NCBI GenBank assembly: GCA_014874475.1
Contig: JADBJJ010000008.1
Location: 64,893-104,321 of the forward strand
Reading direction: 5' to 3'
Origin: Chloroflexota bacterium
GTDB lineage: Bacteria; Chloroflexota; Anaerolineae; B4-G1; DUEL01
DNA length: 39,429 nucleotides
The notes under the pieces are model-generated. The model was given only the letters and a program-made list of their open reading frames with translations. It had not been told where the DNA came from and ran no database searches. The position numbers and the translations under genes were made by a program. Below, piece after piece: positions 4,203-20,320 of the stretch (the first letter of the stretch is position 1; every line of letters begins with the position of its first letter).

Positions 4203-4232
4203 AAGTCCTCCGCAAATACGGTTAAGGTCTGC

Positions 4233-4925
4233 TCAGTCTCCCGGCTCTATATCCCGCGCCCTGTAGCGGGCCTTCAGTTCATCCACGCTCATATTCTTCA
4301 GGGCCTGAATTTCGGCATCAAATTTGCCGTTCCGAATCTCCTCCAACCGGTCCTCCAGATGTTTGGAGCGCGGGGCCAGGTAGCGGCCATAGAGGCGACG
4401 GGCCAGAATGGCGATGTTGTACTGGGCCTCCTCCGCCGGACAGCGGGCCGCGCAGAGGCCGCACATAATGCAGTCAAAAGAAAGATCGGCCATACGGGCG
4501 ATATCGCCGCGCATCCCAGCCGCCATATAGGCCCGGACGTCTATCTGCTGCGGGCAGGCTTTGGTACATGTCCCACAGCCCAGGCAGCGCAGGAGTTCCG
4601 GGTACAGGCCGAAAAGCGTAGTAGGAGTCGGCTCCAGTTGAGTAGTATTGTAAGTCGCCCGTCGGGCCGGGAAAAAGGGCAACTGGGCCAGATACATATT
4701 CGGCTGCACCACCGTCTGGCAGGCCAGGCCGAAATAGAGTTTGGGGTCGCCCTGGATGCGGTAGACCGTGGCACACGCGCCGCAGAACCCGCCGCGACAG
4801 CCCGCCCCGCGCACCAGTTTGTACCCCGCGTACTCCATGGCCTTCATAATAGTCAACCCGGCGGGGACCATATACTGCTTGCCCATAATGAAGACAGGGA
4901 TCAGATTCTCCTGCTGCTCAGTCAT
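4233..4925 (-). CDS. 2Fe-2S / two 4Fe-4S electron-transfer subunit (SdhB/TfrB N-terminal-like)
   Basis: 230 residues from ATG 4925, with GGAGG four bases upstream. The N-terminal half is a plant-type 2Fe-2S ferredoxin (C43, C48, C51, C69). The C-terminal half has two ferredoxin-type sets, C114/C117/C120/C124 and C152/C155/C158/C162, both with all four cysteines. Classical SdhB has a 3Fe-4S centre as one of its clusters, so this is a variant of that fold. Methanogen thiol:fumarate reductase TfrB has the same front half plus an HdrB-like CCG domain. Here the CCG domain is missing and might be supplied by the HdrD encoded upstream in the same run (inference). It presumably wires the FAD protein encoded next to the Hdr/MvhD chain. 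Cytoplasmic; no signal peptide or membrane segment. Confidence 0.85.
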   Translation of the reverse strand: MTEQQENLIPVFIMGKQYMVPAGLTIMKAMEYAGYKLVRGAGCRGGFCGACATVYRIQGDPKLYFGLACQTVVQPNMYLAQLPFFPARRATYNTTQLEPTPTTLFGLYPELLRCLGCGTCTKACPQQIDVRAYMAAGMRGDIARMADLSFDCIMCGLCAARCPAEEAQYNIAILARRLYGRYLAPRSKHLEDRLEEIRNGKFDAEIQALKNMSVDELKARYRARDIEPGD

Positions 4926-4963: not shown

Positions 4964-6079
4964 TCACCGCTCCTCCCCCATCTCCAACCACTCATCTTCG
5001 CGGAAGGTGATCAGCGGCAGAGGCTCCTCCACACTGCGACCGGGGACATACTCAAAGACCGCCTGGAGTTGCTGGCCGACGGTCCGGAAGACCCGGCCCA
5101 CCGGCAGGTCAGCGGGACACGCGTCGGTGCAGAGGCCACAACCGATGCAGGAGAGCACCATATGATTGAGCCGGGTCAGGTGGAAGAGCATGGTATCTGC
5201 CGGGAGCCGGTACGCGCCTTTCCGCCGCGCCCAGGCCATATACTGAATCGGCTCGTGCTCCATCACCGGACTCTTAAAGAGGCAGGTCTTGCAGTAGCAG
5301 ATCGGGCAGGCAGTCATACAATTATGGCAGCGGACACAGGCAGCGAAGACACCCTCAACGCCCTCCTTCTCCAGCCGGCCGCGCATCTCGGCGAAGACGG
5401 CATCGCGGGCCTGAATACGGCTCCGGGTGATCCTATCCACCGCCTCGGCCCGGCGGCCATCCTCCGGCGCAGCCTCCAGGCCCAGCCGTCCGGCCAATTC
5501 ATCCGCAAGGACGACAGGGATACCCTCCGAGAGGTCAGCGCCGAAGAATTCTATGCGGACATCGCCGGCCACAGCCGCGAAGTTCTCGCATATCTGGCAG
5601 GCGTCCCGGAACGCGTAGCCGGCTTGAGACGCCAGGTCGCCCGTCCGCATTCCGGCCAGCAGGGCCGACCGGTCTACCCCGCCGTTCGCGCGCATCTTCT
5701 GATAGTCGGGGACGGTGTAGGTGCCGGGGCAATCTACCACCACCGTCACCAGGTCCTCCAGGCTGGTCTGCTGGAGTTTGACCAGTTCTATCAGTGCGCG
5801 GTACTCACAGGGGCGCAGGACGGCAGCAATCCGCCCGCGCGGCTCGCGGATGGTCACCGGCCCCACAGCGCGCGCGGCATTCAGGCCCAGCACTGGCGCC
5901 AGCGGGTCCGCTGCATCCAACAGCGCCGGGTCCGCCACCAGCGCCGGCGTGACCGCGCCGGACGGCGTCTCCATTGGCACCAGAACGGCCTCCACCACCT
6001 CCGTCTCCAAAAGCCGCTGGAGAAAGCCCCTCAGGGCCGCCAACATGTCCTGATTTTCAACGGGAATCCGTGCTCTCAT
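4964..6079 (-). CDS. FrhB/FdhB-family iron-sulfur flavoprotein subunit
   Basis: 371 residues; ATG 6079 follows AAGGAG. The N-terminal and central part resembles the coenzyme F420 hydrogenase/formate dehydrogenase beta-subunit family (conserved LRPCEYRAL near 88 and a cysteine-containing DACQIC near 159-164). The C-terminal part has a cysteine-rich 4Fe-4S region at 248-266 and a second motif, CIGCGLCTDACP, at 311-322. In this family the subunit carries FAD and exchanges electrons with F420, NAD(P) or ferredoxin. Which carrier is used here cannot be told. Its position after mvhD and hdrA suggests it feeds or drains an HdrA-MvhD complex, as FdhB does in formate-dependent Hdr complexes. No catalytic formate dehydrogenase or hydrogenase subunit is present in the window. 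Confidence 0.78.
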   Translation of the reverse strand: MRARIPVENQDMLAALRGFLQRLLETEVVEAVLVPMETPSGAVTPALVADPALLDAADPLAPVLGLNAARAVGPVTIREPRGRIAAVLRPCEYRALIELVKLQQTSLEDLVTVVVDCPGTYTVPDYQKMRANGGVDRSALLAGMRTGDLASQAGYAFRDACQICENFAAVAGDVRIEFFGADLSEGIPVVLADELAGRLGLEAAPEDGRRAEAVDRITRSRIQARDAVFAEMRGRLEKEGVEGVFAACVRCHNCMTACPICYCKTCLFKSPVMEHEPIQYMAWARRKGAYRLPADTMLFHLTRLNHMVLSCIGCGLCTDACPADLPVGRVFRTVGQQLQAVFEYVPGRSVEEPLPLITFREDEWLEMGEER

Positions 6080-6152: not shown

Positions 6153-6581
6153 CTACACCGCCCACTCCTTTTTCATCGGATTAGGCCCTTTCTCTTTCAG
6201 GTATTGCGTCATCTGGCTGACCGTGTCGGCAAAGCGCTGGCCCTCCGAGGCGGAAATCCAGCGCAGCCAGACCCGGTCCTCCTCCAGCCCGGCCTGCTTG
6301 AGGATTTCCTTGAGAGCGATGATGCGCCGCCGGGCCTTATAGTTGCCGGATTGGTAGTGGCAATCGCCGGGGTGACAGCCGCCGACGAGCACCCCGTCGG
6401 CCCCGTCCAGCAACGCTTTCAGGACGTAGGTGGGGTCCACCGAGCCGGTGCACATCAGGCGAATGATGCGGACGTTGGGCGGGTACTGAATGCGAGACGT
6501 CCCCGCCAGGTCCGCCCCGGTGTAGGTACACCAGTTGCACAGAAAGGCGACGATTTTGGGTTCAAAGCCGTTATCGGACAT
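6153..6581 (-). CDS. mvhD: MvhD-type 2Fe-2S electron-transfer protein
   Basis: 142 residues from ATG 6581, chosen because GGAGG stands just upstream; an in-frame start further upstream would fall inside a strong hairpin. The protein is the typical MvhD/FlpD domain (LCNWC at 14-18, MCTGSVDP from 43, GCHPGDCHY at 68-76) with C15, C18, C44, C69 and C74 available for the 2Fe-2S cluster. In methanogens and in the Moorella MetFV-HdrABC-MvhD complex this subunit passes electrons to HdrA. Here it follows a full-length HdrA; the same HdrA-then-MvhD order is found fused in one chain in QmoB of sulfate reducers. No selenocysteine or truncation is seen. Confidence 0.93.
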   Translation of the reverse strand: MSDNGFEPKIVAFLCNWCTYTGADLAGTSRIQYPPNVRIIRLMCTGSVDPTYVLKALLDGADGVLVGGCHPGDCHYQSGNYKARRRIIALKEILKQAGLEEDRVWLRWISASEGQRFADTVSQMTQYLKEKGPNPMKKEWAV

Positions 6582-6592
6582 GTTTCCTCCCC

Positions 6593-6637
6593 AAAAAGAT
6601 GCCGGTACTTGCGACGGCTCTGTTGCCGCAAATACCG
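6593..6637 (-). terminator. Intrinsic-terminator-like hairpin between hdrA and mvhD
   Basis: On the minus strand CGGTATTTGCGGC (6637-6625) pairs over 13 bp with GTCGCAAGTACCG (6615-6603); two pairs are G-U. The loop is 9 bases. Six bases later comes TTTTT (6597-6593). The structure ends just ahead of the mvhD ribosome-binding site, so it could attenuate transcription into mvhD and the genes beyond, or protect the 3' end of the hdrA message. Confidence 0.55.
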
Positions 6638-6644
6638 ATAGCAT

Positions 6645-8342
6645 TTACCATCCCACCAGTGCCTCTACCTGGGCCAGAATCTGGTCGGGCGTGAAGTGCT
6701 GGAGACGGATCGCCTTGGACGGGCAGGTGACCGCGCAGGCGCCGCAGCCCTTGCAGAGGACGGCATTCACCCGCGAGACGCCCCAGAGGGGGTCCAGCGC
6801 CGGCGCGCTGTACGGGCAGATTTCCACGCACATCCCGCACCCGGCGCAGAGTTCCGGGTCCACAACGGCTGTCGCCGCCTCCATCGGGACGACGCCCCGC
6901 ATCAGCGGGATGAGCGCCGAGGCCGCCGCCGCCTTCGCCTGCGCGACGGTATCCGGGATATCCTTCGGGCCCTGGCAGCACCCCGCCAGGAAGACCCCGT
7001 CCACCGCCGTATCCACCGGGCGGAGTTTCGGGTGAGCCTCCAGCAAGAAACCGTCGGCGGAACGCGGGAGTTTCAGGAGTGCGGCGATATCGGCTGCCTC
7101 CGGGCGCGGCTCCATCCCCACGGCCAGCACCACCAGGTCCGCCTCGTGCTCCACCGTCCGCGCCAGCAGTGTGTCCTCCACCCGCACCACCACCCGCTCG
7201 CCCCGGCGGTAAATCTCCGAGACGTTGCCCCGGCGATAGCGCACCCCCGCCCGGCGGGCCTCGTCGTAGAACTCCTCCCCCCGCTTGCCGAAAGTCCGGA
7301 CATCCATATAGAAGACGGTGACCCGCGCATCCGGCAGGGCCTGGCGGACCAGTTGCGCCTGTTTGGCACTGATCATGCAGCAGACCCGGGAACAGTACGG
7401 GCGACCCAGTTGCTGATCTCGTGAGCCGACGCACTTGATAAACACCACCTCCTTCGGCGTCTTGCCGTTCACCGTCAGGTCGCCCGAAGATAGCCGCTGC
7501 TCCAGTTCCAGCGTGGTCACCACCTGCGGGTAAATGCCATATCCGAACTCCGGCTTGAGGCGCGGGTCAAAGACATTGTAGCCAGTGGCGATAACAATGG
7601 CCCCGACCTGGATCTGAGCCGGTGCAAGGCCGGCCTCTATGGGCCCCACCCGGGCCTCAAAATTGCCCACAAAACCCGTAATATCGGTCACGCGGGAGTT
7701 CAGATAGACGGTGATGTTCGGGTGGCGCCGGACCTGGTCCACCAGTGCGGGAAGCCATTCAGCGACGGGCTCCAGGTCCGGGAAGGTGCGATTCAATTCG
7801 GCAACGCGACCACCCAGACGGTCGCTCCTCTCTACCAGATGCACCGGAAACCCGGCATCGGCGATATCCAGCGCAGCCACCAATCCCGCGACACCGCCAC
7901 CAATGACCAGCGCGCCGGGCGTCACGGGCGCTTCCCGTTCCTCCAGCGGCTCCAGGTGGGCCGCCTTCATCACCGCGGCGTAGACCAGCGCCTTCGCCTT
8001 GTCCGTCGCCTCATGGCGGTCGGGGTGAACCCAGGAGCATTGCTCCCGGATGTTGGCCATCTCAACCTGATACGGGTTGACCCCGCCTTCATGGGATGCG
8101 GCGCGAAAGGTCGGTTCGTGCATCCGGGGCGAGCAGGACGCCACCACCACCCGGTTCAGCCCCAGCGTCCGGGCGTCCTCTTTGATAAGGGCCTGGCCAG
8201 GCTCGGAGCACATATACGTGTAGTGGCGAGCGATAACCACACCCGGCAGCGTAGCGGCGAACTCCGTCACCGCTTCTACGTCCACCGTCGCGGCGACGTT
8301 GGTCCCGCAATGACAAATGTAGACACCGATGCGCGGTTTCAT
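6645..8342 (-). CDS. hdrA: HdrA, full-length single module
   Basis: 565 residues. ATG 8342 is preferred over an in-frame ATG 39 bases upstream because AAAGAGG lies just before it and the protein then begins exactly at the conserved HdrA N-terminus. N-terminal cluster domain cysteines are all kept: C10/C12 (CHCG), C45 (YMCSEPGQ), C70 (ASCSPRMHEP), C102 (REQC). Next come the FAD site VIGGGVAG near 148, LGGRVAEL, CVGSRD and YCSRVCCM, then two C-terminal ferredoxin motifs (CAGCGMCVEICP, CKGCGACAVTCP). HdrA is the flavin subunit that splits electrons between a high- and a low-potential acceptor. Ten bases separate it from hdrD, and MvhD, its usual partner, is next. With MvhD it matches the domain order of QmoB. 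Confidence 0.95.
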   Translation of the reverse strand: MKPRIGVYICHCGTNVAATVDVEAVTEFAATLPGVVIARHYTYMCSEPGQALIKEDARTLGLNRVVVASCSPRMHEPTFRAASHEGGVNPYQVEMANIREQCSWVHPDRHEATDKAKALVYAAVMKAAHLEPLEEREAPVTPGALVIGGGVAGLVAALDIADAGFPVHLVERSDRLGGRVAELNRTFPDLEPVAEWLPALVDQVRRHPNITVYLNSRVTDITGFVGNFEARVGPIEAGLAPAQIQVGAIVIATGYNVFDPRLKPEFGYGIYPQVVTTLELEQRLSSGDLTVNGKTPKEVVFIKCVGSRDQQLGRPYCSRVCCMISAKQAQLVRQALPDARVTVFYMDVRTFGKRGEEFYDEARRAGVRYRRGNVSEIYRRGERVVVRVEDTLLARTVEHEADLVVLAVGMEPRPEAADIAALLKLPRSADGFLLEAHPKLRPVDTAVDGVFLAGCCQGPKDIPDTVAQAKAAAASALIPLMRGVVPMEAATAVVDPELCAGCGMCVEICPYSAPALDPLWGVSRVNAVLCKGCGACAVTCPSKAIRLQHFTPDQILAQVEALVGW

Positions 8343-8352
8343 AGACACCTCT

Positions 8353-9477
8353 TTACAGCGCCATCGCCACCAACTCGGCAATGTCCATCACCCTCAGCCG
8401 CTCGGAGAGCCCCTTCACCTTCACTGCGTCGTCCAGCATCGCCATACAGAAGGGACAGGCGACGGCGAGAATCTCGGCGCCGGTATCGGCGGCTTCCTGG
8501 ACCCGCTGGAAGGCCAGCCGTCCCTCGGTGTTGGTCCCTTCAAACCACATCCGCCCGCCGCCGCCTTCGCAGCAGAGGCTCCGATCCCGGATGCGGTCCA
8601 TCTCCACAAACTTCACACCCGGAATGGCCTTCAGGACCTCCCGAGGCTCGTCAAAAATCCCGTTCTGCTTGCCCAGGAAGCACGGGTCATGGTAAGTAAC
8701 CACCTTTTCCACCCGACCCGTCATATTCAGCCGCCCTTCCTCCAGGAGACGAGCCAGCGCCTGGGTGTAGTGCAGGACATCCATCCCCAGTTGGTACTCG
8801 TGGCGGAAGGTGTTCATACAATGCGGCGAGGTCGTCACCATCCGCGCCACGCCGACCTCCTCCAGCAGTGGCTTTCCTTCCTCCACCAGCATCTCAAAAA
8901 GGCCCATCTCCCCCACCCGGCGCACCTCGTTCCCACAGCAGGTCTCCTCTGTGCCCAGGTGGCCCAAGTCCACCCCGGCGGCCTGGAGCACCCGGACCAG
9001 CGCCTTCGTCGCCGCCTGGGCGCGGATATCGTAGGCGGAACTGCAACAGGTGAAGAGGAGCGTCTCGCAGCCCTCCTGGGCCGATTTGACCTCCAGCCCG
9101 TCCATCCAGGCAATCCGGTCCTCCCGCGCGTACCCCAGCGGGTTACCCTGGCGGAAGATGCCCATCAGCGCGTTGCCAATGGTGCTGGGCACCTTTCCCT
9201 CCTCCACCAGCAAACTCCGCAGGGCGATGATGACCTCCGCCGGACGGACGTCCTTTGGACAGCGCTCCACACAGGTGAAGCAGCAGGTGCAGTCCCAGAG
9301 TGCCTCCTCGTGGATCGGTCCTGCGATGTCACCGATCAGCGCGCCGTAGACCAGGGAGCGAACGTTCAGCACCGTCGTCATAGAAACGGGACACCCACCG
9401 GTGCACTTCCCACACTGGATGCAACTGAAGAGGTCCAGGCCCAGTCCGATTTCCCGCGCGTGCTGCTGGATGTCCAT
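8353..9477 (-). CDS. hdrD: HdrD-type iron-sulfur protein (HdrC and HdrB fused)
   Basis: 374 residues; ATG 9477 with GGGAGG upstream. The N-terminus has two 4Fe-4S sets (C19/C22/C25/C29 and C63/C66/C69/C73), as in HdrC. The rest is a two-repeat CCG domain (FTCCSSAYD, EETCCGNE, HDPCFLG, CCEGGGGR, CPFCMAML), as in HdrB/HdrD, GlpC and related oxidoreductases. In HdrB-type proteins the CCG repeats hold non-cubane clusters acting on a disulfide. The second repeat here reads CCEGGGGR, as in HdrD/LutA-like members, so the substrate may be a small-molecule disulfide, DsrC-like protein thiols or none (relay). No membrane anchor (HdrE) is adjacent, which suggests a soluble partner of the flanking HdrA proteins, comparable to BamD in class II benzoyl-CoA reductase complexes. 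Confidence 0.88.
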   Translation of the reverse strand: MDIQQHAREIGLGLDLFSCIQCGKCTGGCPVSMTTVLNVRSLVYGALIGDIAGPIHEEALWDCTCCFTCVERCPKDVRPAEVIIALRSLLVEEGKVPSTIGNALMGIFRQGNPLGYAREDRIAWMDGLEVKSAQEGCETLLFTCCSSAYDIRAQAATKALVRVLQAAGVDLGHLGTEETCCGNEVRRVGEMGLFEMLVEEGKPLLEEVGVARMVTTSPHCMNTFRHEYQLGMDVLHYTQALARLLEEGRLNMTGRVEKVVTYHDPCFLGKQNGIFDEPREVLKAIPGVKFVEMDRIRDRSLCCEGGGGRMWFEGTNTEGRLAFQRVQEAADTGAEILAVACPFCMAMLDDAVKVKGLSERLRVMDIAELVAMAL

Positions 9478-9605: not shown

Positions 9606-10919
9606 TCACCGAGAACGCGTCTGATGCAAAACCACCAGCGCCGAAGCCGCCGCGGCCTTCGCCTGGGCGACCGTATCCGGAATGTCCTTGGGGCTCTGGC
9701 AGCAGCCCGCCAGAAAGACCCCCGTTCGGGCGGTCTCCACCGGTCGGTACTTGGGATGGGCCTCCTGGAAAAACCCATCGGGCGAGCAGGCCAGGCCCAG
9801 CAACTGGGCCACAGCGGGCGTGTCGGCCCTCGGGACCACCGCCGTCGCCAGCACCACCAGGTCGGCCTCCACCTCCACCGTCCGGCCCAGCAGCGAGTCC
9901 TCCGCCCGCACCACCAACCGGTCCCCCCGCCTGTAGACTTCCGACGGCTCCCCCCGTCGGTAAATGACCCGCTCCTCCTTCACCCGGTCGTAGAACTCCT
10001 CGTACCCCTTGCCGAAGGCCCGCATATCAATGTAAAAGACGGTGATCCGGGCGTTCGGGAGTTTATCCCGCACCAGGTGCGCGTGCTTGGCAGTGTACAT
10101 GCAGCAAATCCGGGAGCAGTACGGGACTCCAGTGTGCGGGTCCCGGGAACCGACGCAGTGGATAAAGACCACGTCCTGCGGCTCATTCCCGTTGAGGACG
10201 ACTTTCCCTCCCGTCGGCCCGGACGCCGAAGAGAGCCGCTCAAACTCCAGCCCGGTGATGACGTTCGGATAGACCCCGTAGCCGAACTCCGGCTTTGTGC
10301 GCGGGTCCATCAGGTCAAAGCCGGTGGCGACGATAATTGCCGCGACATCTACCTTCACGATGCGCTCTTTCTGCTCAAAGTTGATGGCGTCTGCGGGGCA
10401 GGCATCCTTGCACAAAAAGGTCTTGCCGCAGACGCCGCGGGTCAGATAGAGACAGGTCTCGGGGTCTACGGTGTAAATAAGGGGGACCGCCTGGGGAAAG
10501 GGGACGTAGATGGCCGACCGTTTGCTCAGTCCCTGGTTGAACGTATCCACCACCCGCCCCCGCATCCGGCAGGCCTGGGCACATGCCCCGCAACCGCGGC
10601 AAAGGTCCTCCTCCACGTAGCGAGGCTTCCTGCGGATGGTGACGTGAAACGCCCCCGCCTCCCCCTCCACAGCAACCACCTCGGAGTAGGTCATCAGTTC
10701 AATATTCGGGTGCTGGCCCACACTCACCATCTTGGGCGTGAGAATACAGGACGAACAGTCCAGCGTCGGGAAGGTCTTATCCAGTTGGGCCATCCGGCCC
10801 CCCACGCTGGGCTCCCGTTCCACCAGATAGACGGGATAACCGGCATCAGCAATATCCAGCGCGGCCTGAATGCCGGCGATGCCCGCACCGATGACCAGTG
10901 CTGCTGGTTTCTGGGCCAT
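9606..10919 (-). CDS. Short HdrA-like flavoprotein (QmoA-like)
   Basis: 437 residues from ATG 10919 (AGGAGG upstream). It starts directly with the FAD motif GAGIAG (11-16), so it lacks the HdrA N-terminal cluster domain. It has the inserted iron-sulfur region (C107/C110/C113/C117, then C156, C164, C170, C174) and the CVGSRD and YCSRICCMY signatures. It stops right after the AKAAAASAL helix, exactly where full HdrA proteins continue into two ferredoxin motifs, and those are absent. I found no continuation of a ferredoxin domain in the 128-base gap downstream, so this appears to be a true short form. The layout is that of QmoA in sulfate reducers. With HdrD, HdrA and MvhD following, it would be one of several flavin subunits of a larger soluble complex. 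Confidence 0.88.
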   Translation of the reverse strand: MAQKPAALVIGAGIAGIQAALDIADAGYPVYLVEREPSVGGRMAQLDKTFPTLDCSSCILTPKMVSVGQHPNIELMTYSEVVAVEGEAGAFHVTIRRKPRYVEEDLCRGCGACAQACRMRGRVVDTFNQGLSKRSAIYVPFPQAVPLIYTVDPETCLYLTRGVCGKTFLCKDACPADAINFEQKERIVKVDVAAIIVATGFDLMDPRTKPEFGYGVYPNVITGLEFERLSSASGPTGGKVVLNGNEPQDVVFIHCVGSRDPHTGVPYCSRICCMYTAKHAHLVRDKLPNARITVFYIDMRAFGKGYEEFYDRVKEERVIYRRGEPSEVYRRGDRLVVRAEDSLLGRTVEVEADLVVLATAVVPRADTPAVAQLLGLACSPDGFFQEAHPKYRPVETARTGVFLAGCCQSPKDIPDTVAQAKAAAASALVVLHQTRSR

Positions 10920-10967: not shown

Positions 10968-13900
10968 TTACACCACTGCATCCACCATCTCATACACCCT
11001 GCGCGCGGCGTAGCCGACCTGCTGAGTTGCCTTGTTCGGGCAGACAGTCGCGCAGACGCCGCAGCCCATACAGAGGGCCTCTATCACCTCCGCGTACGGC
11101 CCGCCCGGTTCCAGCACTCGCGCCTCATACGGGCACGCCTCCACACAGAGCCCGCAGGCCGAACAGAGTCGGATGTTCACCCGTGCCACCGTCCGGACGA
11201 CCTCTACCTGGCCCTGTGCCAGCAGCGCCGCCGCCCGCATCGCCGCCCCCCGGGCCATCAGAATCGTCTCATCGGCCGCGCGCGGCGAATGAGCCAGCCC
11301 GCAGACGAAAATCCCCCGCTTGGTGAAATCCAAGGGCCGCATCTTCGGGTGCTCCTCCCGGAAGAACCCGTGCGCGTCCACCGGCACTCCCAACGCCTCC
11401 GCCAGAGCCCGGCTGTCGTTCGGCTCCAGCCCCGTACTGAGCACCACCAGCCCCGCCGGGAGCACCACCTCCTCCCCGGCAATCGGCTCCACCAGCCGGA
11501 CCCGAAGGCCTTCCGGGCCCGCCGTCACCTGGGGCTTATCCGGCAACTCGTAGCGCAGGAAGACCACCCCTTTCTCCCGCGCCAGCCGGTACGCGTCCTC
11601 TCGGAAGCCATACGTCCGCATCTCTCGGTAGAGGACGGTCACCTGAGCGTTGGGATTGCGCTCCTTGATCGCCAGCGCGTTGATCACTGCCTTGGTGCAA
11701 CAGATACGGCTGCAGTAGGGCCGCCCCGGCTCTCGCGATCCCACGCACTGAATCATCACCACATCGGACGGGATTTCCTTCCCCTCCGCCAGCATTTTCT
11801 CCAGTTCCCGTTGGGTTACGACGCGCGGGTCCTGGCCGTAGAGATACTCCGTCGGGAGCACCTCGCGGCCGCCGGTGGCGACAATGACGGCCCCGTACGT
11901 CTCCTCCTGCTCCCCCTTCGGCCCAACCAGACGGGCGCGGAACTGCCCCAGCCGACCCGATACCCCCTGAACCTCCGTCTTCATCAGCAGCCGGACGCGC
12001 GGCTCCTGGCTCAGTCGCTCCAGCAGTGTTATCAGCGCGGCCTGGGGGTCTCCGCTCAGACCTTTTGTCCGCGCCCACTCGCGCCACTCGTTGCCCCCAA
12101 CCGTCCGCAGTTCCCGCAACTGGCCGCCCAGCGTATCCGTCCGCTCCACCAGGTCCACCGGATAGCCCAGGTCCGCCAGCGTCAGCGCGGCGGTCATCCC
12201 CGCCAGCCCGCCGCCAATCACCAGAACCCTTCGGTTCAGCGGCTCCGCAGACGGCTGGAAGGGCTCCTGTCGGACCGCGCCCGCTACCGCCATCGCGACC
12301 AGTTCCTTGGCCTTTTCGGTGGCGATCTTCCCGTTGCGGGCGTGGGCCCCGGCGACCTCCCCCCGCAGATTGACCAGTTCCAGAAGATTGGGATTGAGGC
12401 CAGCGGCGCGCATCATCTCCGCGAAGGACTCCGCCCGGCGGATATCCGTGTACCCCGCCAGGACGACCCGGTTCAGCCGCTCCTCCCGCACGATGCGGGC
12501 GATCTCCTCCATCCCCTGGCGGGAGAGGCCGTCCCCTACCACCATCGCCTGGGCGACGTTGGGCAACGTGCGGGTGCGCTCCGCCACCGCCTCCAGGTCA
12601 ATCACCTCGCCGATCTCCCCGCGGTGGTCGCAGAAGAAGACCCCCACGCGCGGCCACTCCCAGGTGACATCGCGCTCTGCGGGCGCGCCCTCTGGGACGA
12701 CGGGCGCTTCCGCGCCGGGCGCCCCGGCAGTGGCGAGGGCTGCGGCCGCTGCGGCCACCGCCGACGCCTCCACCACCGTCTCCGGAATGTCCTTCGGCTC
12801 CCGGAACGCGCCGGCCACCAGAACACCGGCCCGCGAGACCCGCTCCGGAGCGAAAAGGTCCGTCACCGCAAACCCGTACTCATTCAGTTCCACCCCCAGC
12901 GCCTGACCCAGCGCCTGCGCCCCCAGCGGCGAGCCGAAGCCCACCACCAGGACCACCAGGTCAAACTCCTCCTCCCCCACCTTTCCGTCTTCGGCGACCG
13001 TCTTCAACAACAGGTTCCGGGTCTTCGGTCGCTCCTGGACGGCGGAGACCATGCAGCGGCAGTACGTCACCCCAGGAAGGGCCTTCGTCTCCTCTAAATA
13101 GGTCTCGTAGTCCTTCCCGTAGGTCCGGATGTCCATAAAGAAGACGGTGATCTCGGTATTCGGCGCCAGCGCCTTGACCACCCGCACGTGTTTGGCCGTG
13201 TGCATACAGCAGACGGAGGAGCAGTACCCCCGGCCAATGGACATATCCCGCGAGCCGACGCACTGGATAAAAGCGATGCGGCGCGGCCGCTCCCTGTCGG
13301 ACGGGCGGACAATGTGGGCGCCAGTGGAGCCGGCGAAACTGACCATCCGCTCAAACTGAATGCTGGTGAGGACGTTCGGGTAGTACCCCCAGCCGAACTC
13401 CCCCTTCAAGCGAGCGTCAAAAGGCTCAAAGCCCGGGCTGAGGATGACCGCCCCCACCTGCACCTGGCTCTCGGTTGGCTGCATATCCAGGTCAATCGCC
13501 TCCGTCGGGCAGACCTCCACACACTTCCCGCAGCGGGTACAGACCGACATATCAATGACGTAGGCCGGCGGAATCGCCCGCAGCGGCGGACGGTAAATCG
13601 CCCTGACCTTCGCCAGGTCGCCCTCATAGAGGCCAGGCCGTTCAACCGGGCAGACCCGGGCGCACTTCCCGCAGAGGATGCACCGCTCCGGGATGACGTA
13701 GCGCGGCCTGTGATGGAGACGGACGGTGAACGCACCCGGCTCCCCTTCCAGCCCTACCACGTCGGTGTACGGGACAATCGTGATCCGGGGATGCAGGTCG
13801 CACTCAATAGTGGGACAATACGCTGGGCGCCCCGGGACCATATAGCAGATACCGCAGGAATCGGTCGGGAAGGTTCGATCCAGCAGGTGGAGCGACCCGC

Positions 13901-14036
13901 CGATGCCGGGCGCGCTGTCCACCAGAACGACCGGATAGCCGGCCTCCGCCAGAAGCAGCGCCGACTGCATCCCCCCAATCCCCGCGCCGACGACCAGAAT
14001 AGAAGTGGAAGTTGGAATACTGACGTTGTCGGTCAT
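10968..14036 (-). CDS. hdrA: Tandem (double) HdrA flavoprotein with degenerate internal cluster domain
   Basis: 1022 residues, about twice a normal HdrA. Module 1 (1-440): FAD site VVGAGIGG (15-22), two inserted 4Fe-4S motifs (C119/C122/C125/C129 and C166/C169/C172/C176), CVGSRD and YCSSVCCMH. A low-complexity Ala/Pro linker (425-460) joins module 2: an HdrA N-terminal-type domain (463-590), FAD site VIGGGLAG (606-613), CVGSRE, YCSRICC, and two C-terminal ferredoxins (C958-C969 and C989-C999). In the 463-590 domain the usual cluster cysteines are gone except C469: FFCDHRG, VVGDGLS, LAGYTD and NLRGEV replace CHCG, YMCS, ASCS and REQC. So this HdrA copy probably lacks that 4Fe-4S cluster, unlike its paralogue at 1-2450. 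It is the first gene of the left-hand Hdr run and follows a 291-base gap. The start has only a GGGGGAACGG-type ribosome-binding site. Confidence 0.92.
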   Translation of the reverse strand: MTDNVSIPTSTSILVVGAGIGGMQSALLLAEAGYPVVLVDSAPGIGGSLHLLDRTFPTDSCGICYMVPGRPAYCPTIECDLHPRITIVPYTDVVGLEGEPGAFTVRLHHRPRYVIPERCILCGKCARVCPVERPGLYEGDLAKVRAIYRPPLRAIPPAYVIDMSVCTRCGKCVEVCPTEAIDLDMQPTESQVQVGAVILSPGFEPFDARLKGEFGWGYYPNVLTSIQFERMVSFAGSTGAHIVRPSDRERPRRIAFIQCVGSRDMSIGRGYCSSVCCMHTAKHVRVVKALAPNTEITVFFMDIRTYGKDYETYLEETKALPGVTYCRCMVSAVQERPKTRNLLLKTVAEDGKVGEEEFDLVVLVVGFGSPLGAQALGQALGVELNEYGFAVTDLFAPERVSRAGVLVAGAFREPKDIPETVVEASAVAAAAAALATAGAPGAEAPVVPEGAPAERDVTWEWPRVGVFFCDHRGEIGEVIDLEAVAERTRTLPNVAQAMVVGDGLSRQGMEEIARIVREERLNRVVLAGYTDIRRAESFAEMMRAAGLNPNLLELVNLRGEVAGAHARNGKIATEKAKELVAMAVAGAVRQEPFQPSAEPLNRRVLVIGGGLAGMTAALTLADLGYPVDLVERTDTLGGQLRELRTVGGNEWREWARTKGLSGDPQAALITLLERLSQEPRVRLLMKTEVQGVSGRLGQFRARLVGPKGEQEETYGAVIVATGGREVLPTEYLYGQDPRVVTQRELEKMLAEGKEIPSDVVMIQCVGSREPGRPYCSRICCTKAVINALAIKERNPNAQVTVLYREMRTYGFREDAYRLAREKGVVFLRYELPDKPQVTAGPEGLRVRLVEPIAGEEVVLPAGLVVLSTGLEPNDSRALAEALGVPVDAHGFFREEHPKMRPLDFTKRGIFVCGLAHSPRAADETILMARGAAMRAAALLAQGQVEVVRTVARVNIRLCSACGLCVEACPYEARVLEPGGPYAEVIEALCMGCGVCATVCPNKATQQVGYAARRVYEMVDAVV

Positions 14037-14327: not shown

Positions 14328-15170
14328 CTATCCGACCCTCTGGAGCACCGGCCTCGGATCGATCATATGCTTCCCCCACCACTTCTCCACTCCGGGCAGG
14401 CCGAAGGCCAGCCCCATCAGTTCGGTGAAGTAGAGGACGGGGATTTTCTTTTCCAGGTTCTGGCGGGTATCCAGGTTGATCTGACACATCCCGCAGGCGC
14501 AGGCGATAACGTCCGCCCCGGCCTCCTGGGCCTCCTGTGCCAGACGGGAAGAGAGGGTTACGACCACCCCGCTCCGGCTGAGGGAGAGGCTGGCTCCACA
14601 GCAATCCACCTTATATGACCACTCCACCGGCTCCGCGCCCAGCGCGGCCATCAGCCGGTCCATCCGGGTGGGATGCTCCGGGTCATCCCAGCCGGTGAAC
14701 TCCGGCGGGCGGACCAGGACGCAGCCGTAGTACGAGGCCACCCGCAGCCCCTTCAGCGGACGGGTCACCCGCCTGCGGACAGCCTCTATGACCTCCGGCT
14801 CCGTCAGCACCTCCAGCAGGTGACGGACGCGCGGCTGGCCCGTGTAGGTGAACCCCAGCAGCGCTTCCATCTCCTGCCGCCAGGCCAAATCCCCCCGCAA
14901 TTTCATATCCGCGACCAGGACATGCTGGTAACAGGCCGGGCACGGTGCGACGATGTCCAGCCCGTCCTTCTGGGCCAGGGCGACGTTACGCGCCGGCAGC
15001 CGCAGCGCCAGTTCGTGGTCCAGACTGTGGGCCGACGAGGCTCCACAGCAGTTCCAGTCCTCCAGTTCCGCCAACTCCACCCCCAGCGCTTCACAGACCG
15101 CGTCGGTAGAGAGGCCAAACTCTACAGCAGTGGTGCCAATGGTGCATCCGGGATAGTAGGCGTACTTCAC
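14328..15170 (-). CDS. hdrB: HdrB-type protein, second copy
   Basis: 280 residues. The start is GTG 15170, with GGAGGACACACT directly upstream. Two complete CCG repeats are visible: first C9, CCG at 42-44, and a later CPACYQH; second YYGC, DCCGAS, and CGMCQINLD. This is the classical arrangement binding two non-cubane 4Fe-4S clusters where HdrB reduces the disulfide in methanogens. It follows the longer hdrC (58-base gap), making an HdrCB pair distinct from the pair at 19442-20750; the two HdrB proteins differ clearly in sequence. No CoM-CoB chemistry is expected in a bacterium, so the natural acceptor is unknown. It is the last gene before the large control gap. Confidence 0.93.
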   Translation of the reverse strand: MKYAYYPGCTIGTTAVEFGLSTDAVCEALGVELAELEDWNCCGASSAHSLDHELALRLPARNVALAQKDGLDIVAPCPACYQHVLVADMKLRGDLAWRQEMEALLGFTYTGQPRVRHLLEVLTEPEVIEAVRRRVTRPLKGLRVASYYGCVLVRPPEFTGWDDPEHPTRMDRLMAALGAEPVEWSYKVDCCGASLSLSRSGVVVTLSSRLAQEAQEAGADVIACACGMCQINLDTRQNLEKKIPVLYFTELMGLAFGLPGVEKWWGKHMIDPRPVLQRVG

Positions 15171-15228: not shown

Positions 15229-15783
15229 CTACTGGTGTCCCCCTTCGCCGGTATCCCCTTTCTGATACAACCGCCGGACCTCCGAGACCCCCCGAATCCG
15301 CTCCGGCAGGAAGGAAATCTTCCCCTTCAGGATCAGGCCAAGGCCCATCCCCAGGTCAGAGAAGAGGTCGCGGCTCAGGAGTTTGTACTCCATCAGCATG
15401 CTCAACTCATGCACCCGGCCCCAGAGGCGAATGCTATCCAGGAAGGACCGGTGGAGCGCGTAGACCATCGGGTCGGGCTTATAGCCCTCTTCCAGCGCCA
15501 TATAGCGCAGCGTATCAAACATCGGCGCCAGCCGGATGTGGTTGGGACAGCGGGTCCCGCAGGCCTCACAGCCCACGCAGAGCCAGATTGCGGAACTGGA
15601 GAGGACCTTCTCCTTCCGCCCCAACTGCACCAGCCGGATCACCTGGGCCGGTTTGTAATCCATCACAAAAGCGACGGGACACCCCGCCGAGCACTTCTGG
15701 CAAAAGTAGCAGCGCAGAACCGGCTCTCCGCTCCGCTCCTGCACTGCCCGACTGAACGAAGGCTCTATCGCTACAACCGTCAT
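15229..15783 (-). CDS. hdrC: HdrC-type iron-sulfur protein, second copy
   Basis: 184 residues from ATG 15783 (GGAGG upstream). Two 4Fe-4S motifs: C25/C28/C31/C35 (CYFCQKCSAGCP) and C69/C72/C75/C79 (CVGCEACGTRCP). HdrC links HdrA to HdrB. The protein is longer than the 134-residue copy at 20346-20750 because of a C-terminal helical tail (about 80-184) without cysteines. It is followed by hdrB and preceded by a GNAT gene and an hdrA, so it can form an HdrABC set with the hdrA at 16421-18109. Confidence 0.92.
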   Translation of the reverse strand: MTVVAIEPSFSRAVQERSGEPVLRCYFCQKCSAGCPVAFVMDYKPAQVIRLVQLGRKEKVLSSSAIWLCVGCEACGTRCPNHIRLAPMFDTLRYMALEEGYKPDPMVYALHRSFLDSIRLWGRVHELSMLMEYKLLSRDLFSDLGMGLGLILKGKISFLPERIRGVSEVRRLYQKGDTGEGGHQ

Positions 15784-16420: not shown

Positions 16421-18109
16421 TTAAATGACCACATCTGCCATCGCCAGCACCTGGACCGGCTCCCAGTTGTGGATGCGGCTGGCCTTATTGGGACAAGCCA
16501 CCACGCAGGCCCCACAGGTCTGGCAGAGCGCAGGATTGACCGTCGCGATGGGCCGTACCGGGTGGATCTCCCGCGCCCCGTATGGGCAGACCGCCACGCA
16601 CGCGCCGCAGGCCGAACAGAGGTCTTCTATCACATAGGCGACGGTCGGCTCCTGAACCATCGCGTCCTGGGCAAAGAGTTGGATGACCTTCGCCGCCGCG
16701 GCCGCCGCCTGCGCTACCGTCTCCGGGATGTCCTTGGGCCCCTGCCCGACCCCTGCCAGGAAGACCCCCGCCGTCAGACTCTCCACCGGCCGCAACTTGG
16801 GATGCGCCTCACTGTAAAATCCGTACTGGTCGGCCTGGATGTGAAGCGTCTGGGCCAGGGCCAGCGCCTCCCGGCTGGGCAACATCGCCGTCGCCAGCAC
16901 CACTAAGTCGGCCTCCAACTCCAATGGCCGGCCCACCAGGGTATCGGAGCCCCAGACCACCACTCTATCGCCCCGGCGGAAAATCTTGCTCACCTTGCCC
17001 CGGAGATAGAGGACATCGTACTCCTCCATCGCCCGCTGGACAAACTCGTCGTACCCCTTCCCGCCGGAGCGGATGTCAATGTAGAAGACGTAGGCCTGCC
17101 CACCCGGGACCCGTTCCTTGTACATCATCGCCTGCTTGGCGACGTACATACAGCAGACCTTGGAGCAGTAGGAGACACCGTGCTCGGGGTCGCGGGAGCC
17201 CGCGCACTGGACGAAGACGACCTCCTGCGGCACTCGCCCGTCCGATGGGCGCTGCAGCCCCGTCCGCAGCATCTCCTCAAAGGTCAGGCCGTCCACCACA
17301 TCGGGAATCTGCCCCCCGCCATACTCCGGCAACCGCTCCAGCGGGTACGGATCCCAGCCGGTGGCGACGACGACGGCCCCCACCTCCTCCGTCCGGGGGC
17401 CTTCCGACATCTCCACCGTCACAGCGAAGTTGCCCACGTAGCCTTCCAGTTTCGTCACCCGCGCGTTGAAGAGGACCTGAATGTTCGAATGCTCCAGGAC
17501 CTGGCGGATTTTCTCCTCCAGCAGGCCCGGCGCGGCTTCAAAGTTCAGGTATGTGCTGGAGAGACGGGCCATCTTGCCGCCCAGGCGGTCCTCCCGCTCC
17601 ACCAGCACCACCGGGTAGCCCGCGTCGGCGATGTTCAGCGCGGCCTCCATCCCGGCGATGCCGCCGCCGACCACCATCGCCCGCCGGACAATGGGCAACC
17701 GCAGCGGGACCAGTTCCTCATCCCGTTTCACCTTCTCCACCATTGTCCGGACGATGTCCACAGCCTTGGCCGTCGCCTCTTCCCGTTCGTGCTGGTGGAC
17801 CCAGGAGCACTGCTCGCGGATGTTGGCCATCTCGCAACGGTACGGGTTCAGCCCCGCCGCGGCGACGGCCTGCCGGAAAGTCCGCTCGTGCATCGCCGGA
17901 GAGCAGGCTACGACGACGACACCGTCCAGGCCGTGCTCGGCAATCGCCTGCCGGATGAGGCTCTGGCCCGGGTCGGAGCACATGTACTTGTAGTGAGTGG
18001 CGAAAGCGACGCCGGGCATCCGGCCCGCCTCCTCCGCGACCCGCTCCACATCCACCGTCGCAGCGATGTTGATTCCGCAGTGACAGATAAAGACGCCGAT
18101 ACGACTCAT
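16421..18109 (-). CDS. hdrA: HdrA, full-length single module
   Basis: 562 residues; ATG 18109 overlaps the aminotransferase stop (ATGA), implying translational coupling. The N-terminal cluster domain is intact (C9/C11, C44, C69, and REQC near 101). The FAD site VVGGGIAG, LGGKMARL, CAGSRD and YCSKVCCMY follow, with two C-terminal ferredoxin motifs (CSACGACVAVCP, CQTCGACVVACP). This is the HdrA closest to the Wood-Ljungdahl genes and is flanked by two HdrCB pairs, so it most probably forms an HdrABC complex. In Moorella an HdrABC-MvhD set couples NADH to methylene-H4F reduction with MetFV. Here the HdrABC sits next to folD/acsE but no metF or mvhD is adjacent. Confidence 0.95.
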   Translation of the reverse strand: MSRIGVFICHCGINIAATVDVERVAEEAGRMPGVAFATHYKYMCSDPGQSLIRQAIAEHGLDGVVVVACSPAMHERTFRQAVAAAGLNPYRCEMANIREQCSWVHQHEREEATAKAVDIVRTMVEKVKRDEELVPLRLPIVRRAMVVGGGIAGMEAALNIADAGYPVVLVEREDRLGGKMARLSSTYLNFEAAPGLLEEKIRQVLEHSNIQVLFNARVTKLEGYVGNFAVTVEMSEGPRTEEVGAVVVATGWDPYPLERLPEYGGGQIPDVVDGLTFEEMLRTGLQRPSDGRVPQEVVFVQCAGSRDPEHGVSYCSKVCCMYVAKQAMMYKERVPGGQAYVFYIDIRSGGKGYDEFVQRAMEEYDVLYLRGKVSKIFRRGDRVVVWGSDTLVGRPLELEADLVVLATAMLPSREALALAQTLHIQADQYGFYSEAHPKLRPVESLTAGVFLAGVGQGPKDIPETVAQAAAAAAKVIQLFAQDAMVQEPTVAYVIEDLCSACGACVAVCPYGAREIHPVRPIATVNPALCQTCGACVVACPNKASRIHNWEPVQVLAMADVVI

Positions 18110-19251
18110 CCAGCCAATCCCACCATACTGGCTCCCGCCGGCACAGCGAACCCCTTCCCCCGCAGGAATTCCTCCACGGCGAAGAGGAACTCCATCAGGA
18201 AAGGTCGGGTGGACGCCTTGCCCATATGGCCGACGCGGAAAATCTTGCCCGCCAGCGGCTCCAGGCCGCCGGAGATGAGGATGCCGTGCTCCTGGGCCAA
18301 GTAGTCCATCAGTTCCCGGACGGAGAACTCAGGACGAGCCTTCACCGCTGTGGCGATGGGCGACGCTACGGGCCCGTCCGGGACGAACATCTCAAAGCCC
18401 ACGGCCTCCAGCCCCCGCCGGACTGCCTGCGAGGCCCACCGGTAGCGGGCGAAGTGGGCCTCCAGCCCCTCCGCCAGGATGCGCCGCAGGCTCACCCGCA
18501 GCCCCAGGACGTTGTTGGTAGGCATAGTGACCGGCGTCGGGTGCCAGGCCCCCCAGTTCTCGGCGTACCAGCGCCACGTGCGCAGGCTCAGGTACCAGCC
18601 GTGGCGGCTCTCGTTGCGGTCCACCCACTCCCAGACGGTTGGACTCACCGAAATGAAGGCCAGCCCGGGCGGGCATTCCAGACACTTGTTCGTCACCGTC
18701 ACGCAGACGTCAATGCCCCAGTCGTCCACTGGCAGCGGCACTCCCCCCAGCGAGGAAACGGCGTCCACGATGATGGGCAGGCCCGCCTGGTGGGTCACCT
18801 GGGCCAGTTCCCGCACCGGGTTCATCACCGTTGTCGCAGTCTCGTGGTGGACAACGGCGACGGCCCGGGCCTGCGGGTGCTCCCGCAGGACCCGCCGCAG
18901 GTCATCCGGCTCCAGTGGCTGGCCCAGCGGCGCGGTGAAGGGCACGACGCGCAGGCCGTGGGATTCGGCAATTGTCCCCATCCGCTCGCCGAAGAAGCCG
19001 TTCATTCCCACAACAATGGTCTCCCCCTCGGCCAGCATGCTCCCAAAAGCCATATCCAGGAGCGCCGACCCCGCCGCCGGGACCATAAAGAGGTCATTCC
19101 GGGTGCCGAAGACCTGCTTCAGCATACCGATAGTCTCGTGATACATCTCCACCCACTCCGGGCCGTAGTGGCGCGGAGTGGGCTGAGCCATCGCCGTCAG
19201 GACTTCCTCGTCCACCTCACAGGGCCCGGGGATATACAACTTGTAGCGCAT
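18106..19251 (-). CDS. Class V PLP aminotransferase (alanine-glyoxylate / serine-pyruvate type)
   Basis: 381 residues. ATG 19251 is chosen because AGGAGG lies 8 bases upstream and the protein then begins with the family's N-terminal PGP motif; the frame is open further upstream but through non-coding repeat-like sequence. Visible signatures: HHETATT (135-141), VDAVSSLGG (162-170, Asp163 for the PLP pyridine nitrogen) and TNKCLECPPGL (187-197) with the probable PLP lysine K189. These enzymes transfer amino groups among alanine, serine, glyoxylate and pyruvate, making glycine or hydroxypyruvate. Placed between hdrB and hdrA and overlapping hdrA by 4 bases, it is translated with electron-transfer genes. 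A link to glycine/serine C1 units feeding the H4F pool is plausible but inferred. Confidence 0.88.
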   Translation of the reverse strand: MRYKLYIPGPCEVDEEVLTAMAQPTPRHYGPEWVEMYHETIGMLKQVFGTRNDLFMVPAAGSALLDMAFGSMLAEGETIVVGMNGFFGERMGTIAESHGLRVVPFTAPLGQPLEPDDLRRVLREHPQARAVAVVHHETATTVMNPVRELAQVTHQAGLPIIVDAVSSLGGVPLPVDDWGIDVCVTVTNKCLECPPGLAFISVSPTVWEWVDRNESRHGWYLSLRTWRWYAENWGAWHPTPVTMPTNNVLGLRVSLRRILAEGLEAHFARYRWASQAVRRGLEAVGFEMFVPDGPVASPIATAVKARPEFSVRELMDYLAQEHGILISGGLEPLAGKIFRVGHMGKASTRPFLMEFLFAVEEFLRGKGFAVPAGASMVGLAG

Positions 19252-19401
19252 AGATGATGCCTCCTGAAAGGCAAAGGATGACTCCTCCGGAGCAATCCGG
19301 AACGGCACATAGTCGGAAACCGCTACCAGACCGGCATCCATCGCTGCCCAACCGGGCCTGGCAAGGTTTTCCGGCCATCCTGCCTGTCCGTTTCCGCAGT
19401 A

Positions 19402-19416
19402 CAGGCTCTCAGCCTG
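19402..19416. repeat. Hairpin-bearing repeat-like sequence in the hdrB-aminotransferase gap
   Basis: CAGGCT-CTC-AGCCTG is a perfect 6-bp hairpin. The surrounding gap (19252-19441, 190 bases) is rich in GGCAGG/CCTGCC-like words and short GC dyads (also CTCCGGAG near 19292), resembling dispersed GC-rich repeats found between genes of some GC-rich genomes. It separates hdrB from the aminotransferase; no promoter is evident. Confidence 0.35.
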
Positions 19417-19441
19417 CACCTGGCGGGCGGGACGGCCTGCG

Positions 19442-20320
19442 TTACACAGACTCAACGGCCTGCACTACGTTTCGCAGCAGCGGGTACGGGTCGGTGTACA
19501 TCCCCTCTATGCCCCAGTCCTCCTCCGGCAACCCCAACGCAACGGCCATCAACTGGGTGAAGTAGAGGACCGGAATTTCATCGCCGGTGCGCCCGAAGGC
19601 CGTCTCCCGCTGGGGCCATTCCAGGTTGAACTGGCAGAGGGGACAGGCCGTCACCAGCACCTGCGCGCCCGCCGCCCGCGCCGACGCCACAATCTCCCGC
19701 GAGAGCGTCTCCGAGACGGTCGGGTCTTTCACGGTCAGGTAGGAGCCGCAGCACTCAATGCTGAAGGGAAAATCCACTGGTTCTGCTCCCACCGCCCGGA
19801 TCAGGTCGTGCAGGATGGTTGGCGCCTCGGGGTTATCCAGGCCGATTTCATCGTACGGGCGCAGGAGCAGGCAGCCGTAGTAGGGGGCCACGCGCAGCCC
19901 AGTCAGCGGACGGACCACCCGTCGGGCCAGTTCTGCCCAGCCCAGATAGTCCCGCAGGAGTTCCAGCAGGTGGACCACCCGCACGCGGCCCTCGTACCCC
20001 TGCTCGGTAAACCAGTTGATGCGCTCCCGCATTGCCGGGTCTCGCTCCAGCGCCGTCTGAGTGCGCTTGAGGACATGGTAGCAAATCGCGCAGAGCGCGG
20101 CCACCTGCTCCCCTGCCTGCTCGGCCTGGTAGAGGACACGCGTCGGGGCAATGAGCGCCATAGAGTTATCCGTCGCCAGAGGGAAAGTGGCCCCGCAGCA
20201 TTGCCAGTCCGGCAGTTCCACCAGTTCCATCCCCAGCGCGGCCGCCACCGCCCGCCCGGAGCGATCGTACCCCTTCGCCTTTGTGGAAAGCGTGCAACCG
20301 GGATAGTACGGGATTTTCAT
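19442..20320 (-). CDS. hdrB: HdrB-type protein, first copy
   Basis: 292 residues. Two CCG repeats with standard spacing: C9, C41-C42, C77, C80 and C150, C190-C191, C226, C229, the ligand pattern for two non-cubane 4Fe-4S clusters. It follows hdrC by 25 bases; the ribosome-binding site is weak (CGGAATCCGTC before ATG 20320), suggesting coupling to hdrC translation. Together with that hdrC it forms the first HdrCB pair, immediately downstream of folD. The disulfide or other acceptor is unknown. Confidence 0.93.
   Translation of the reverse strand: MKIPYYPGCTLSTKAKGYDRSGRAVAAALGMELVELPDWQCCGATFPLATDNSMALIAPTRVLYQAEQAGEQVAALCAICYHVLKRTQTALERDPAMRERINWFTEQGYEGRVRVVHLLELLRDYLGWAELARRVVRPLTGLRVAPYYGCLLLRPYDEIGLDNPEAPTILHDLIRAVGAEPVDFPFSIECCGSYLTVKDPTVSETLSREIVASARAAGAQVLVTACPLCQFNLEWPQRETAFGRTGDEIPVLYFTQLMAVALGLPEEDWGIEGMYTDPYPLLRNVVQAVESV

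Follow-up and report, generated by a model that had tools for sequence, protein, structure and literature searches.

The window, by which we mean the whole stretch of 39,429 nucleotides that was analysed (contig C5, 64893-104321), comes from the 3.0-Mb genome of a hot-spring-type Chloroflexota bacterium. The nearest named relatives of this genome are Thermoflexales/Thermoflexus and Anaerolineae metagenome genomes, also of the Chloroflexota. The gene under study, TA1, lies within a same-strand run of hdr genes (Table 1), followed by genes of the acetyl-CoA pathway, namely those for FolD, a methyltransferase, AcsV, acetyl-CoA synthase, CO dehydrogenase and formate-THF ligase. Between TA2, the paralogous tandem HdrA, and the FdhB-like gene lie genes for a TfrA/FrdA-like flavoprotein and for a TfrB-like protein with Fer2 and Fer4 (window 2598-4925). 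An aminotransferase gene (window 18106-19455; best model pyridoxamine-pyruvate transaminase, below the cut-off) sits between the HdrB-like and HdrA genes, and its position is conserved in Thermoflexaceae.

Table 1. Genes and domains of the hdr run, in window positions. NTD, N-terminal domain; Fd, ferredoxin.
Feature	Position	Strand	Remarks
TA2, paralogous tandem HdrA	3-2450	-	cut by the window edge; full gene C5:64244-67456, 1070 aa
TA2 NTD	645-1043	-	all four cysteines
FdhB/ElpB-like electron-input subunit	4964-6079	-	
MvhD/FlpD	6153-6644	-	
A578, HdrA	6645-8381	-	intact NTD and C-terminal Fd; no Cys197, no inserted Fd
HdrD-like	8353-9477	-	HdrC+HdrB fusion: Fer4 and two CCG
A437, HdrA	9606-10919	-	Cys194/Cys197 and inserted Fd; no NTD, no C-terminal Fd
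TA1, tandem (type II) HdrA	10968-14036	-	1022 aa
TA1 C-terminal 2[4Fe-4S] Fd domain	11007-11189	-	residues 950-1010; 8/8 cysteines present
TA1 second TrxR/FAD domain	11202-12239	-	residues 600-945; no Cys197, no inserted Fd
TA1 second-half NTD	12243-12659	-	residues 460-598; 3/4 cluster cysteines gone
TA1 first half, TrxR/FAD domain	12717-14036	-	residues 1-440; E356/K409 equivalents present, no NTD
TA1 inserted Fd domain	13467-13697	-	residues 114-190; 8/8 cluster cysteines present
TA1 interface loop	13791-13868	-	residues 57-82; DSCGIC-x9-CPTIEC with C61, C64 (= Cys197), C74, C79
HdrB-like	14328-15170	-	two CCG
HdrC-like	15229-15783	-	
A562, HdrA	16421-18109	-	intact NTD; no Cys197, no inserted Fd

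Aligned with HdrA proteins whose structure is known, TA1 covers residues from about 139 to 576 with its first half and residues 2-650, minus the inserted ferredoxin, with its second. TA1 combines two TrxR/FAD domains in a single chain. As in the N-terminal half of a type II HdrA, its first half has the inserted ferredoxin and Cys197 and lacks the NTD and the C-terminal ferredoxin, while its second half has the NTD fold and the C-terminal ferredoxin and lacks Cys197, as in the C-terminal half of this type. C61 and C64 are the equivalents of Cys194 and Cys197. The four-cysteine cluster site of the second TrxR/FAD domain (C764/C775/C779/C780) is intact. TA1 departs from the type in its NTD cluster cysteines, of which one of four is kept, and is thus a variant of type II HdrA and not a canonical member. 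It departs also in the second half's K409. Being a tandem, it also differs from the canonical single HdrA (type I), a homodimer with one TrxR, an NTD, an inserted ferredoxin and a C-terminal ferredoxin. An AlphaFold2 model of TA1 (mean pLDDT 83, pTM 0.81; residues 57-72 below 50) placed the first half on 8rwn_A with an rmsd of 2.4 Å over 423 residues. In this model residues 460-1022 match full HdrA chains at a Z of about 30, and the NTD fold is retained.

Each half of TA1 aligns over its domains with the HdrA of Methanothermococcus thermolithotrophicus (5odc) and Methanothermobacter marburgensis (8rvu). These are homodimers of a single HdrA with two NTD clusters, whereas TA1 is one polypeptide without a canonical NTD ligand set. 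The type II HdrA known from methane-metabolising archaea (classes A3/A4; PMC12054007, PMC9012536) is built on the plan of TA1. It shares with TA1 the two TrxR/FAD halves, an N-terminal half that resembles class A6 in lacking the NTD and the C-terminal ferredoxin, a C-terminal half with the NTD fold and the C-terminal ferredoxin, and a place in the same gene run as HdrBC, HdrD, MvhD and FdhB-like genes; the order of the HdrA3/4 halves is worded in reverse in PMC9012536. TA1 differs from the archaeal proteins in its host, in the loss of NTD ligands and in an extra Cys-rich loop beside Cys197. It also lacks the second-half K409, whereas K409 and E356 are reported in both halves of the archaeal type II HdrA (PMC12054007). 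The Moorella thermoacetica MetFV-HdrABC-MvhD complex resembles TA1 in its acetyl-CoA-pathway context and in its fused HdrA with complementary NTD and Cys197, a complementarity reported for fused HdrAs (PMC9012536). The Moorella HdrA harbours two FAD (PMC5861303). Earlier publications cover fused HdrAs, the complementarity of NTD and Cys197, and the variable retention of cysteines in HdrA. The open papers that we searched describe neither NTD-ligand erosion together with a compensating loop nor a type II HdrA lacking the second K409.

We examined the NTD by alignment to the Methanothermococcus HdrA (5odc_A). Reference residues C11, C13, C46 and C71 correspond to C469, H471, L504 and Y529 of TA1, and so C469 alone remains; that all but one of these cysteines are replaced had been noticed from the sequence alone. 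TA2, described in the same sequence-only reading as the paralogue that keeps these cysteines, indeed has all four. It was also considered that orthologues might keep the cysteines, which would have pointed to a sequence error. All same-family orthologues that span the NTD (L011-L017, L022-L026) instead lack two or three of the four and read CHLY, CHFY, YCFC or GCFP. The same pattern in the independent assemblies L011, L012, L013, L014 and L017 excludes, for practical purposes, an error of sequencing or of the draft assembly. All four cysteines are present in relatives at 50-60% identity (L020, L027, L029-L035, L098, L099). CCCC was found in 102 complete NTDs of the collected loci, and every loss is confined to the TA1 protein type; this comparison with the same-family orthologues excludes chance as the source of the loss. 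The most advanced cases are L041/L044/L108, where all four ligands are lost, and L069, likewise without a remaining NTD cysteine.

The leftover cysteines vary: C469 is kept in Thermoflexus-like members, and the C13 and/or C71 equivalents in others. Such differences between sisters (CHLY, YCFC, GCFP) fit ligands that are no longer needed. On these alignments, the cluster ligands of the NTD are lost through stepwise decay. The domain itself is under purifying selection (dN 0.04-0.09, dS 0.25-0.34 among Thermoflexus-like species), no weaker than in the relatives that keep the cysteines. Set against the second TrxR domain, NTD dN differs little between pairs that have the cysteines and pairs that lack them, and the NTD as a whole is therefore not decaying.

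In the first half, tandem HdrAs with NTD loss share the loop consensus SCGxC-x9-(Y/F/L)CP-x3-E(C/S), which adds C74 as a third cysteine and, in most of them, C79 as a fourth. Across the 13 rows that have lost NTD ligands, cysteine fills 39/39 cells at C61, C64 and C74, against 12/52 at the four NTD sites. C79 is replaced by serine in L016, L036, L037, L041, L044 and L108, so a set of four loop cysteines is not universal. H50 is invariant across the 13 rows and is a candidate fourth ligand only. Among the Thermoflexus-like species compared, loop dN was 0. All eight cysteines of the inserted ferredoxin are present in every readable row with NTD loss. The invariance of C61, C64 and C74 in all loss lineages suggests that a metal centre remains at the interface between the first half and the NTD. 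TA2 equals TA1 in architecture, but it has CCCC and K409 and a different loop, HDCVLCRGTSDHGYGC (window 3-2450 and L009). In TA2-type tandems the third loop cysteine is present too, yet the NTD cysteines are retained; it is therefore not sufficient for the loss and may have another role.

Our census of fused HdrAs covered Chloroflexota. In the tree, the loop was gained once (27/71 rows, SH-aLRT 100), and the losses of NTD ligands, at least three, all fall inside the clade that has the SCGxC-x9-CP loop. The loss lineages are Thermoflexaceae, G307 (L069), and the lineages f11 plus f30 (L036/L037 and L041/L044/L108). The last pair counts as one or two events, since two long branches meet there. 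A search for relatives from G307 matched no genome besides G307 itself. In a tree of 106 NTD-bearing rows the loop clade makes up 29% of the length, giving P of about 0.025 for three losses there and about 0.007 for four if losses are taken as uniform over branch length. Confinement of the losses to the loop clade beyond chance is thus suggestive, not conclusive. All three or four events fall in a single clade, and its members may share another relaxing condition.

We asked whether the separation of TA1 from MvhD could be the cause of the loss and rejected this, since TA1 is separated in L125-L127 with the NTD intact. Between the TA1 orthologue and MvhD, several genomes, including two NTD-loss lineages, carry genes that by eye resemble CBS-domain genes (L059:12050-12712, L064:11631-12986, L066:10621-12027).

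E356 and K409 are reported as marks of the bifurcating flavin (PMC12054007). Both are present in all readable first halves. In the second half of TA1 the E356 equivalent is kept and the K409 equivalent is I785. This pattern implies that only the first flavin of TA1 bears the bifurcation signature, and type II HdrAs need not hold two bifurcation-competent flavins. The second-half K409 is replaced by I, V, T or A in Thermoflexales members and by R in L041/L044/L108. In Thermoflexales its loss precedes that of the NTD cysteines, as L098, L020 and L099 lack the lysine but have CCCC. TA2 and a third tandem of 1496 aa keep both the NTD ligands and the second-half K409. The proposal of two specialised, asymmetric fusions is supported by this, since among these tandems the NTD ligands and the second-half K409 are lost only in TA1. 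The accompanying idea that the NTD is only a scaffold fared less well, given the invariant loop cysteines.

Other HdrAs of the genome divide the same parts between separate chains. A437 and A578 flank the HdrD-like gene and form unfused complementary halves arranged as in TA1. They are likely a split heterodimer. The likely Cys197 partner of A562 is A437b (L134:7319-8770), which in this genome lies on contig C8, outside the hdr run, and is 68-73% identical to A437b of L059, L064 and L066. A437b stands beside A562 in L125, L059, L061 and L064-L066 but not in Thermoflexaceae; in G101 and G009 it is likewise elsewhere.

In published models, the partner HdrA completes the NTD cluster with its Cys197, and the low-potential branch runs through this cluster (PMC9012536). 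The low-potential electron is described as carried by clusters HA3, HA5 and HA6, with a 21.5 Å gap that needs movement (PMC6019823). From cysteine counts we infer that HA3 is the NTD cluster, whereas PMC12350162 assigns HA3 to the C terminus. The position of C64, the Cys197 equivalent, in the half without an NTD fits this reported ligation of a partner NTD cluster. We tentatively favour the reading, to which we give slightly less than an even chance, that TA1 is an intramolecular HdrA heterodimer whose first half bifurcates, whose interface cluster has passed to the first-half loop, and whose NTD is a cluster-free docking domain. The interface cluster may thus have changed its holder instead of vanishing. 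Electron bifurcation by TA1 is itself inferred from the family.

On this reading, bifurcation and exit would belong to the first half, which contains the FAD site, the E356 and K409 equivalents, the Cys197-type residue and, as the putative low-potential exit, the inserted two-cluster ferredoxin. Entry would fall to the second half, whose C-terminal two-cluster ferredoxin would take electrons from MvhD, and the NTD would act in docking only. The putative cluster between FAD and the inserted ferredoxin would be held mainly by C61, C64 and C74, with C79, H50 or another residue as the fourth ligand. The methanogen Hdr is thought to move this cluster to and fro on a mobile arm; in TA1 it would then be a fixed relay seated on the half that bifurcates. 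That the cluster linking the bifurcating FAD to the ferredoxin exit moved from the mobile NTD to a loop on the stationary half, as a fixed relay fixed at least three times independently, is possible but on balance rather doubtful.

A live rival, although an unlikely one, is that the interface cluster is gone and the NTD is purely structural or a docking domain, with electrons reaching the inserted ferredoxin otherwise or with no bifurcation at all. The extent of the ligand loss (3/4 in TA1, 4/4 in L041/L044/L108), the retained fold under purifying selection and the additional loss of the second-half K409 agree with it. It sits poorly with C61, C64, C74 and the eight inserted-ferredoxin cysteines, which are invariant in every loss lineage. 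Without an NTD cluster, C64 would be deprived of its only reported role, that of Cys197, and the exit ferredoxin would have no feeder, yet both are invariant; for this reason we favour relocation of the cluster to the loop over its disappearance. Relocation has its own weak points. Residues 57-72 of the loop were modelled with pLDDT below 50, and the loop ligands are sequence-based candidates. Moreover, the loss of the second-half K409 before the NTD cysteines in Thermoflexales would fit a general decay of the second half too.

The cluster could also be supplied in trans: another HdrA, for instance A562, would dock with its NTD on the first half of TA1, where C64 would complete the cluster, and TA1's own NTD would have become redundant. 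A562 is encoded in the same gene run as TA1, A437b is absent beside it in Thermoflexaceae, and cysteine donors and intact NTDs at first appeared equal in number. However, A437b is merely relocated (contig C8, L134), which leaves these counts unbalanced. In addition, f11 and f30 have A437b next to A562, yet their TA1 NTD cysteines are lost. We consider this improbable, and less likely than a cluster-free scaffold. About as improbable is a shared-ligand cluster, in which the residual C469 with H471 and D470 of the NTD would join C64 and the loop cysteines, so that relocation would be incomplete. Members with partial loss do have a cysteine to offer, C469 in the Thermoflexus-like ones and the C13 and/or C71 equivalents in others, but the retained cysteine differs between sisters, and L041/L044/L108 and L069 have none. 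A lineage with repeated NTD-ligand decay, in which the exit ferredoxin and the docking cysteines stay intact, is a natural test of the need for the shuttle.

The 1496-aa tandem HdrA is encoded just outside the window, downstream (L009:13121-17611, minus strand; C5:59120-63610). It has a GltD/NfnB-type insertion in the inserted-ferredoxin region of its first half. This type of insertion (type III) was described in single HdrA (PMC12054007). Among the Chloroflexota genomes that were searched, many encode proteins of about this length.

We also observed an in-frame TGA at the Cys197 position (FPTLDCSTU) of two single HdrAs of this genome, L137:3413-5380 and L138:3133-5124, with a third candidate at C12:138525. 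The same in-frame TGA occurs at this position in a tandem HdrA of L079. It likely encodes selenocysteine, and its presence in the single HdrAs indicates that the Cys197 residue matters.
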